DNA of 64,000 nucleotides from Atopobium sp. BS2 (GTDB taxonomy: Bacteria; Actinomycetota; Coriobacteriia; Coriobacteriales; Atopobiaceae): NCBI RefSeq assembly GCF_000565075.1, contig NZ_JDFG01000033.1:1-64000 (forward strand). The letters run 5' to 3'. Below the pieces are notes generated by a model. The model made no database searches. It was not told the origin of the DNA and was given only the letters and a program-made list of their open reading frames with translations. Positions 1 to 6,586 of this stretch are shown in pieces (the first letter of the stretch is position 1; each line of letters opens with the position of its first letter). A program made the position numbers and the translations under genes.

Positions 1-1
1 C

Positions 2-363
2 CACAAAATAGCGCAGCTTTGGTAGGTTTTGCTAAAGAATCGACATGTTCCTAATCAAGATAGCCAGCAGCTAGGCGGTTGCACTACCTGATATGCATCT
101 CTATGCATAAACTTCATCTAATATGCTTATACATGAATAGACTTATATAAGAAATTTAACTATAGATAAATTCCGCACCTAAGGAACACACTTAAGTCAG
201 ATATTCTGCTCAATTGCGGGCATTTTACACATCTAATGACGATAATCTGCATGTTTTAGATATTTTCAGCGTCATGTATACGTCTTTTTAACAGATTATC
301 CGACTTAGGTGTGTTTTGAACTGCCTCCTATTTCTTATGTCCAAGAAATGGGAGGCAGTTCAT
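2..363. repeat. Partial copy 1 of a dispersed non-coding element
   Basis: This stretch aligns almost base for base with 5477-5839, with scattered substitutions and small indels. It contains no convincing gene. Near its right end, two arms (185-208 and 292-315) are inverted copies of each other. It finishes with a hairpin whose arms are 318-336 and 343-361 (GAACTGCC... and ...GGCAGTTC). The left end lies outside the window. Similarity to copy 2 stops at 363, and the next bases (GGCTCTCTTTTTG) look like the right half of an intrinsic terminator. The stretch lies downstream of the leftward GNAT gene. Confidence 0.85.
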
Positions 364-404
364 TCACAGGCTCTCTTTTTGTTCAAAGCGTTTCTCGCTG
401 TCTA

Positions 405-4304: not shown

Positions 4305-5339
4305 ATGAAAAAGACAATCACCTTTGGTATTCCATGCTATAACTCTTCGGAGTACATGGATCACTGTATTGAGTCTATTCTTGAGGGCTCTGATTACGCC
4401 GATGACGTGCAGATTGTTATTGTTGATGACGGCTCTGTAAAAGATGATACTGCCGCTAAAGCTGACGCTTGGCAGGAACGCTACCCCAACATCATTAAGG
4501 CAGTCCATCAGGAAAACGGCGGCCACGGCATTGCTGTTATGAAGGCTGTTTCTCATGCTGATGGTGTGTACTTCAAAAACATTGATTCAGATGACTGGGT
4601 AGATGGTGATGCACTGAAGACCTTCCTTCAGCAGCTTCGCACCTTTATTGCTTCTGATAATCCAGTTGACCTGGTACTCTCAAACTACGTCTACGAGCAC
4701 GTTGAGGATAATACCCAAAACTTTGTGGACTATCGCGACGCGGTTCCTACCAACAAGATTATTGGTTGGGACGAGATTGGCCGCTTTAAGCTGTCTCAGT
4801 ACCTTCTGATGCACGCGATTACCTACCGTGTTGAGGTTCTGCGCTCTGCAAATATCCAGATGCCTGAGCACACTTTCTATGTGGATAACGTCTATGCTTA
4901 CGTTCCATTCCCTAAGGTAAAGACTATCTATTACGTTGATGTTGACCTGTATCGTTATTTTATTGGTCGAGACGATCAATCAGTTAACGAGAAGGTCTTA
5001 ACAAGTCGTGTTGATCATTATTGGCGTGTTGCTCGCAATATGATGCATGCATATCACATCTACGACGACATCTCTTCTCCACGTCTTCAGACGTACATGA
5101 TGAGTTACTTCACTATCATCATGGCTATCTGCTCAGTCTTCTCTAAGATGAGCGATCGCGAGGATGCCATGGATCAGTTGGAGGAGCTCTGGGATGAGCT
5201 TCGCGCTTATGACAAGAAGATGTACCGCAAGGCTCGCTACGGTCTTGTAGGCACTGCTACAAATCTTCCTGGCAAGATTGGCAAGACAGTCACCATCGGT
5301 GGCTATCGTGTAGCTCAGAAGGTTGTTAAGTTCAACTAG
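4305..5339 (+). CDS. Glycosyltransferase family 2, possibly galactofuranosyltransferase
   Basis: This 344-residue cytoplasmic enzyme has a GT-A fold. The N-terminal nucleotide-sugar region FGIPCYNSSEYMDHCI (residues about 6-21) is followed by IVIVDDGSVKDDT, and the metal-binding region is KNIDSDDWVDGDAL near residue 91. No transmembrane segment is evident. The C-terminal third is helical and basic. It is translated nine bases after glf with its own AGGGAGC site, so a galactofuranosyl donor is a reasonable inference. The acceptor is unknown. The 3' flank carries one arm of a terminator that now appears split by a repeat element. Confidence 0.85.
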   Translation: MKKTITFGIPCYNSSEYMDHCIESILEGSDYADDVQIVIVDDGSVKDDTAAKADAWQERYPNIIKAVHQENGGHGIAVMKAVSHADGVYFKNIDSDDWVDGDALKTFLQQLRTFIASDNPVDLVLSNYVYEHVEDNTQNFVDYRDAVPTNKIIGWDEIGRFKLSQYLLMHAITYRVEVLRSANIQMPEHTFYVDNVYAYVPFPKVKTIYYVDVDLYRYFIGRDDQSVNEKVLTSRVDHYWRVARNMMHAYHIYDDISSPRLQTYMMSYFTIIMAICSVFSKMSDREDAMDQLEELWDELRAYDKKMYRKARYGLVGTATNLPGKIGKTVTIGGYRVAQKVVKFN

Positions 5340-5361
5340 ACGTTCTTTCAAATCTAAAAGC

Positions 5362-5860
5362 AAAACCCTCGTATCCTGAACTACCTCCCATTTCTTGGAC
5401 ATAAGAAATGGGAGGTAGTTAATATGCGGGTGATTATGATTCTGCAGCGTGTTAGCGTCGGCTTTTAGGCCTGGCGCACAAAATAGCGCAGCTTTCTGGT
5501 GTTCTGCCGAAGAATCGATATGTTCTTAATCAAGATAACCAAGCAGCTAAGCGGTCACACTGCCTGATATGCATTTCTATGCATAAACTTAACCTAATAT
5601 GCTAGAAAATGAATAGCGTCATATAAGAAATTTAACTATCAATAAATTCTGTATCTACGGAACACACCTAAGTCAGATATTCTGCTCAGATGCGGGCATA
5701 TTACACTTCTAAGTCAGATATTCTGCATGTTTCAGGTATTTTCAGCGTCATGTATACGTCTTTTTAACAGATTATCCGACTTAGGTGTGTTTTGAACTGC
5801 CTCCTATTTCTCGTGTCTAAGAAATGGGAGGCAGTTCATCCATGGCGATACGAGGGTTTT
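5362..5860. terminator. Bidirectional terminator stem apparently split by an inserted element
   Basis: The perfect 14-base arms AAAACCCTCGTATC (5362-5375) and GATACGAGGGTTTT (5847-5860) lie directly after the rightward glycosyltransferase and directly after the leftward maf gene. With A and T runs on the outside, they would make an ordinary bidirectional intrinsic terminator if they were adjacent. They are separated by about 470 bases of repeat element. The arms are absent beside copy 1 at the window start, so they are probably flanking sequence and not element ends. Confidence 0.6.
5376..5840. mobile_element. Copy 2 of a hairpin-ended non-coding element (about 460 bp)
   Basis: The unit has no transposase and no convincing reading frame. 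Both ends are palindromes of related sequence. The left hairpin has 18-bp arms 5379-5396 and 5403-5420 (AACTACCTCCCATTTCTT, loop GGACAT). The right hairpin has arms 5794-5811 and 5820-5837 (AACTGCCTCC...). Inside, 5661-5684 and 5768-5791 are inverted copies (22 of 24 positions match). A 17-base part of that motif, TAAGTCAGATATTCTGC, is repeated directly at 5669-5685 and 5710-5726. Bases 5477-5839 match 2-363. This could be a non-autonomous mobile element or a structured RNA gene. Confidence 0.65.
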
Positions 5861-5876
5861 CATTTATAAAGGCGCT

Positions 5877-6539
5877 TTAGTGCTTACGTCCTGCTAGGGC
5901 ATGCTCTAGATAGTCATGATTGCCGGTAAATTTAACCAGCTCACGAGAAAGCAGAGAAACGGGGAGCCCTACGACATTCTCGTAATCTCCCTGAATGCTC
6001 TGAACTAGATAGCGACCATTTCCCTGAATGCCGTAAGCTCCAGCCTTGTCCATTGGCTCGCCCGAGGCAACGTAGGCAGCAATCTCGTCTTCGGAGAGTT
6101 CAAAGAACGTGACGTCAGTAGTCTCCACAAACGCCACGGCAATAACTGATGGCGCTCCGTCAGGAGAAGGGGACTTGAAAGCCTTAAAGTGTCGCAGGGC
6201 AACACCGGTAGATACGTGGTGAGTCTGACCAGAAAGCTTAGAAAGCATGCGTTTGGCGTCTTCAGCGTTTGTAGGCTTGCCAAAAACCTGGCCTTCGTCT
6301 GTCCAGACAATGGTATCTGCGGCAAGCACAATCTCATTGTTGAGCTGCTCAAAGTTAGGCTGCTCCATGAGCTTATAACATATTGCAATGGCTTTTTCTT
6401 GAGCCAAGCGCTTTACGAGCGCAAGGGGTTTCTCGTCCTCTCTACAAATTTCGACAATATCAGCAGGCATAACCTGTGGGTCTATTCCCATAGACTGCAT
6501 AAGTTCAAGGCGCCTAGGGGATTGTGATGCAAGAATCAT
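5877..6539 (-). CDS. maf: Maf-type nucleoside triphosphate pyrophosphatase
   Basis: Maf proteins hydrolyse non-canonical nucleoside triphosphates to monophosphates (house-cleaning) and have been linked to septum control. The 220-residue product starts MILASQSPRRLELM, the canonical Maf N-terminus with the SxSPRR phosphate-binding motif. It carries the family's ADTIVW and KPTNAEDAKRML segments and AYGIQGNGRYLV, although the usual C-terminal region is slightly extended. An ATG 14 codons upstream exists, but AGGAACACAT before 6539 and family alignment favour this start. It lies downstream of the ferredoxin gene, behind a strong terminator. Confidence 0.92.
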   Translation of the reverse strand: MILASQSPRRLELMQSMGIDPQVMPADIVEICREDEKPLALVKRLAQEKAIAICYKLMEQPNFEQLNNEIVLAADTIVWTDEGQVFGKPTNAEDAKRMLSKLSGQTHHVSTGVALRHFKAFKSPSPDGAPSVIAVAFVETTDVTFFELSEDEIAAYVASGEPMDKAGAYGIQGNGRYLVQSIQGDYENVVGLPVSLLSRELVKFTGNHDYLEHALAGRKH

Positions 6540-6586
6540 ATGTGTTCCTATCATTTGAGGTTTTGCTGATACTGTACCCAAAAAAG

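Follow-up and report, generated by a model that had tools for sequence, protein, structure and literature searches.

IS1397, ISKpn1 and ISPsy8 are insertion sequences of the IS3 family that insert into REP palindromes, and their choice of target is attributed to the transposase (PMC1525189). IS1272 and TnSha1, which belong to the IS1182 family, are targeted to terminator stem-loops without primary-sequence specificity; their insertion is blunt, removes part of the hairpin and creates no target duplication (PMC4923244). REPINs, which are associated with RAYTs, consist of two hairpins around a spacer and are thought to be mobilised in trans (PMC3116915). The 462-bp element described here resembles each of these systems in part. 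We put at about 0.85 the probability that it is a MITE mobilised in trans by an IS150-type insertion sequence of the IS3 family, the transposase clade of which inserts at the centres of inverted repeats whatever their sequence.

As in the case of IS1397, ISKpn1 and ISPsy8, IS3-family transposases insert here into palindromes. Those elements use one species-specific REP sequence, whereas the palindromes in our case are mostly unrelated to one another, many are single-copy terminators, and insertion takes place at the dyad centre. Terminator stem-loops as targets and the lack of primary-sequence specificity are shared with IS1272/TnSha1, but the transposase is of another family, 3–4 bp are duplicated and both arms of the hairpin are kept; an insertion of the IS1182/IS1272 type, blunt, with hairpin deletion and no target-site duplication (TSD), was rejected for the present element because both arms and a TSD are present. 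Like a REPIN, the MITE has two hairpins flanking a spacer, but its ends are of the DDE IS3 type and are accompanied by a TSD, while REPINs depend on a Y1 (HUH) enzyme and have no TSD. IS200/IS605 elements make no target duplication either. Insertion of IS3-family elements into palindromes (IS1397, ISKpn1) and of another family into terminators (IS1272/TnSha1) is already known; what differs from the known systems is the IS3-type, sequence-independent and loop-centred insertion with a TSD, together with a MITE amplified through terminators. In a literature search of partial coverage, which leaves priority uncertain, no published case was found of IS3-family elements directed at terminators as a class.

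The window, that is the whole 64,000-nt stretch of DNA analysed, covers the initial 64 kb of contig C33 in the source genome (G000), a Lancefieldella-type draft of 1.60 Mb in 49 contigs. A complete copy of the element lies at 5377–5838 (plus strand), with IS3-type ends and a TSD at both borders; its first bases are TGAACTACCTCCCATTTCTTGGACA and its last bases TGTCTAAGAAATGGGAGGCAGTTCA. The gene-less stretch between two related palindromes that was described in the initial annotation was confirmed, and the palindrome positions given there (5379–5420 and 5794–5837) lie 1–2 bases inside the true ends. The outer 25 bp of the left 46-bp palindrome (5377–5422, plus strand) are an IRL-type terminal inverted repeat. 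The right 46-bp palindrome (5793–5838, minus strand) is also of the IRL type, reads TGAACTGCCTCCCATTTCTTAGACA inwards and is not IRR-like (TGAACTGCGTCCCAAAACTTGGACG), so that the MITE has no IRR. In the MITE the inner arm of the palindrome is completed to GGCAGTTCA. Each palindrome thus amounts to a pair of outward-facing left ends, and both ends of the MITE are of the left-end type. Six occurrences of the 18-mer end motif were counted in the window, where 0.15 would be expected.

Outside the palindromes are the two 14-base arms of a split terminator, AAAACCCTCGTATC (5362–5375) and GATACGAGGGTTTT (5847–5860), both on the plus strand and both as previously described. A 3-bp direct repeat, TCC, present at 5374–5376 and 5839–5841 in direct reading, had been missed. 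When the element and one TCC are taken out, the flanks join to AAAACCCTCGTATCCATGGCGATACGAGGGTTTT, a terminator-like hairpin whose stem is broken by the insertion and which stands between the convergent genes 4305–5339 (plus strand) and 5877–6581 (minus strand). In G002, a complete genome of the same genus (1,543,805 bp) onto the whole sequence of which every G000 flank was mapped, the orthologous site is empty and the terminator is unbroken (726820–726860, AAAAACCCTCGTATTCAAGATGATACGAGGGTTTT).

Copy 1 of the element (1–362, plus strand) is cut on its left side by the contig start. As had been claimed, it ends in the same palindrome (317–362) and is followed by TTCACAGGCTCTCTTTTTG (363–381, plus strand), which consists of the TSD TTC (363–365) and the right arm of the terminator that this copy has split. 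The window starts at base 1 of C33, and the sequence to the left of copy 1 lies outside it; there the initial annotation had predicted the complement of ACAGGCTCTC, that is GAGAGCCTGT. We found AAGAGCCTGT, a match of 9/10, with the TTC duplication common to both sides. The missing left flank at the contig end is AAAAGAGCCTGTGA, and the start of contig C12, taken in reverse, gives ...AAAAGAGCCTGTGAGATTTATTC as far as the left end of an element, which makes AAAAGAGCCTGTGAGATTTATTC the left partner of the arm at 363–381. Base 2126 of C12 maps to 722,254 in G002 and base ~890 of C33 to 722,251; since both contigs map to the same point of G002, it can be inferred from synteny that they are probably physically adjacent.

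No ORF of note was seen within the 462-bp element. Rfam, searched at gathering and relaxed thresholds, matched neither the element nor its inner part to a known RNA family, and prediction of terminator-like sites over 5300–5900 gave none, with no sign that the MITE restores termination. Within the inner cargo (5423–5792, plus strand), the part 5440–5791 belongs to an older repeat of 225–350 bp that is also found in G000 and G002 without the palindromic ends (L017, L022, L025, L064, L065; L068–L072, L076). These copies without palindromes are at fixed sites common to both genomes, several of them just 3' of a terminator. A 23-bp inverted repeat, AACACACCTATGTCGGATAATCTG, borders the last 125 bp of this older repeat, and several of its base pairs show compensatory changes.

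When the source genome was searched for the unit, dozens of full or partial matches were obtained, many of them at contig ends, and the element thus breaks the G000 assembly. Junction analysis together with one further right junction, on contig C3, gave about 20 distinct insertions. Left and right flanks could be joined into 14 pairs, three of them on one contig and the others paired by TSD, by complementarity of the arms and by position in G002. An exact 3-bp TSD was present in 11 of these 14 copies. Removal of the element re-formed a stem with a score of at least 25 in ten of the 14 pairs, as the initial annotation had expected of a terminator target, whereas mismatched left and right flanks reach 25 in 2.6%; T-tracts were present at nine of the ten. 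Four pairs had no strong stem by the score used. At the insertion L014/L024 the flanks share 6 bp, CGAATG, without a 3-bp duplication, and the terminator arms have decayed; its weak stem was counted as decay, the orthologous site in G002 being an intact terminator. The insertions L020/L030 and L064/L059, in contrast, appear to be genuine exceptions to the strong-stem sites. In L003 the element is placed at the base of the terminator stem, outside the loop.

We also noticed two unusual arrangements of the palindrome. At the start of contig C3 (L262, 1–108), the first 62 bases are a repeat of the left flank that was seen at the C22 end, and are followed by the palindrome and then by the right partner of L023; this arrangement is probably chimeric, an artefact of assembly at the repeat. 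In another genome (G020), a solo 46-bp palindrome (L034 1501–1546; G020:C1:91332–91377) stands in a hairpin-like site with a 3-bp duplication, AAC, and is possibly the smallest mobile form, with two left ends back to back. Solo palindromes at other loci (L241, L242, L247 and L250, in other genomes, and L260 and L261) had no clear TSD, and among the isolated palindromes only L034 is a reasonable 46-bp solo element.

Because nearly every copy lies in a terminator, the arms might be thought to belong to the element, which would then carry a split terminator along. The initial annotation had named identical 14-base arms at every copy as evidence against its own reading. The arms are unlike one another at every MITE copy, and thus belong to the target and not to the element; moreover, they are present without it at orthologous sites of G002. 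The idea that the arms travel was rejected on these two grounds, and we give it practically no credence. Eleven orthologous G002 sites carry an intact terminator without the element: L001 (the 5377–5838 copy), L002, L006/L061, L011, L014/L024, L016/L019, L018, L021, L027, L005 and L023. Such empty sites in a relative had been anticipated, and with the hairpin re-formed by the flanks at most copies and the differing arms they bear out the proposal of a non-autonomous mobile element in terminator loops. Two insertions are common to G000 and G002 (L003 = L066; L063/L015 = L067), and the element family therefore probably moved before as well as after the two species separated. At one terminator a full insertion sequence is found in G002 (TSD ATT) and the MITE in G000; these are two independent hits.

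Contig C37 of the source genome carries a complete insertion sequence whose ends and type of target match those of the MITE. It is 1454 bp long, is bordered by TGAACTGCCTCCCATTTCTTGGACA (IRL) and TGAACTGCGTCCCAAAACTTGGACG (IRR), and is inserted inside a terminator with the TSD TTT. Its OrfA (174 aa) and OrfB (283 aa) are separated by an A7 slippery run. OrfB is an IS3 transposase by NF033516 (239 bits, cut-off 160); Pfam matches to rve and HTH were obtained, and the DD(35)E residues D130, D190 and E226 are invariant in alignment A1. The partner thus has what is expected in the IS3 family, an HTH in OrfA, a DD(35)E integrase fold in OrfB and a frameshift between them. Among three E. coli elements compared, IS150 was nearest for OrfB, which is 38% identical to InsK, and OrfA is 29% identical to InsJ. 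The lengths of OrfA and OrfB (174/283, 173/283 in IS150) and the layout of the TG...CA ends, with CCATTT...AAATGG near the left tip, also resemble IS150. The Lancefieldella sequence differs in its long left-end hairpin, which is the same as in the MITE; after this hairpin comes a T-run that immediately precedes the ATG of OrfA (L073 1575–1620; L077), an arrangement that is terminator-like in G002. The hairpin and T-run probably shield the transposase gene from transcription that begins outside it. We know of no hairpin targeting by IS150.

The consensus end of the MITE is identical to the IRL of the C37 insertion sequence at 25/25 positions and has no mismatches to the IRL of the full copies in L077 and L073. 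The 462-bp element, which carries no transposase gene, thus shares its terminal inverted repeats with an insertion sequence, is present in multiple copies and has TSDs of the length seen with the insertion sequence (3–4 bp), as a MITE does. A further genome of the genus (G003) carries the copy of the insertion sequence that is known from L. rimae ATCC 49626. The exact 25-bp left end also occurs on two viral contigs (L351, L352), a possible route between hosts.

The initial annotation had ascribed mobilisation to an IS200/IS605-like enzyme, and this part of its interpretation did not stand. The element does have end hairpins, through which an IS200/IS605 or RAYT (Y1, HUH) transposase could move it in the manner of a REPIN. 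The 3-bp TSDs and the 25-bp ends identical to those of a complete, resident IS3-family element led us to reject both IS200/IS605 and RAYT/REPIN, and IS3 relatives without an end hairpin target alike, so we regard such an origin as highly improbable. One Y1_Tnp (IS200-like) match would provide an enzyme in the source genome (L350, C13:223–480; 101 bits, positions 2–87 of 121); it has no link to the MITE.

The target rule of the IS150-type clade was examined more widely. Among 84,980 species genomes that were scanned, 80 related copies were obtained, in Coriobacteriia, Schaalia/Actinomyces, Rothia, Bifidobacterium and Sutterella, and 53 of them, with both flanks available, were used for target analysis; a stem score of at least 25 was taken as a strong hairpin. 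The joined sites had a median score of 31.5, compared with 15.5 for mismatched flanks (p about 1e-19, indicative only, as mismatched pairs were resampled). Strong hairpins were present at 36/53 sites and 17/53 were without. A TSD of 3 bp was seen in 32 of the 53 copies and one of 4 bp in eight; 12 had none. Although the best stem was sought anywhere in the joined site, the duplicated bases were at the loop in all 36 strong hairpins, with a centre offset of 0.5 ± 1.5 nt (sd). Among the copies of G019 and G020, 10/14 reached a stem score of 25, nine of these being centred. Eight Schaalia/Actinomycetaceae sites have one GC-rich repeat in common and are therefore not fully independent; without them 28/45 are strong. 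Apart from this partial exception, targeting of a single REP sequence, as in IS1397 and ISKpn1, does not describe the data, since no position in the target flanks exceeded 0.61 bits and the arms differ. In G019 we also saw a different IS3-family element in 11 copies (L310–L320), mostly in one REP-like repeat (TTGGGGACGTGTTC...GAACACGTCCCCAA) and usually off centre; it is apparently a REP-targeting insertion sequence and is not neutral as a negative control, and E. coli IS2 and IS3 were used in its place.

The same numbers bear on selection as the cause of the pattern. Insertion could be random, with copies outside terminators, which are harmless places, being lost, and the genome is about 91% coding by ORF call, so most insertions elsewhere would disrupt genes. 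However, in 36/36 cases the duplicated bases lie within 1.5 nt of the loop centre, a precision that is most unlikely to come from selection alone, and an insertion a short distance from a terminator should do less harm than one that splits it. In G002, a stem score of at least 25 was reached at 0.5% of random positions, and only 4.1% of intergenic and 7.9% of gene-3' positions score as high. Selection acts equally on IS2 and IS3 in E. coli, yet none of nine copies there reached this score. We consider random insertion followed by selection very unlikely and infer that targeting is the main cause of the terminator location.

Another possibility is that the terminating transcription complex, with its paused RNA polymerase, RNA hairpin or R-loop, is recognised instead of the DNA dyad. 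Most Lancefieldella targets are indeed genuine-looking terminators with T-tracts, but across the clade a T4 or A4 tract accompanies only 15/36 strong hairpins, and no clear bias of insertion direction relative to terminator polarity was seen (14 versus 9, 13 equal). This explanation seems improbable to us, though less so than selection, and transcription-coupled targeting may apply in Lancefieldella but is less likely across the clade. Relatives without an end hairpin, in Schaalia and Bifidobacterium, also target hairpins, which means that the element's own end hairpin is not needed for targeting. The factor common to the targets is the inverted repeat, not a motif, a T-tract or the hairpin of the element. 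As the sites lack a sequence motif and often lack a T-tract too, the transposase seems to recognise the dyad itself.

To return to the MITE and its presumed mobilisation by an IS150-type transposase: both of its ends are copies of the left end, so that it could be moved in trans by the OrfAB of a full-length insertion sequence like the one on C37. Transposition in the IS3 family is generally copy-out/paste-in, and the same is presumed here. The transposase would pick the centre of an inverted repeat, reading the dyad directly, either as a cruciform or as two half-sites, and the ends would be joined across a 3–4-bp stagger in the loop, which would leave one arm on each side and duplicate the loop bases. 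In this A+T-rich, gene-dense genome most strong inverted repeats are intrinsic terminators 3' of genes, which would be why the element accumulates there. That this clade of IS3 DDE transposases picks its targets by DNA structure alone, reading either an extruded cruciform or a symmetric repeat able to form a hairpin, with a 3–4-bp stagger in the loop, and that the MITE thereby colonises terminators, is a tentative proposal to which we give slightly less than even odds.

The MITE accounts for much of the fragmentation of the G000 draft. The target rule is clear, sequence-independent and dyad-centred, and it holds for DDE transposases that are widespread, in Coriobacteriia, Schaalia, Rothia, Bifidobacterium and Sutterella. 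The tens of sites form a natural panel with which the way a DDE transposase reads DNA structure becomes directly testable. As the preferred landing place is a transcription terminator, read-through between neighbouring genes may change.
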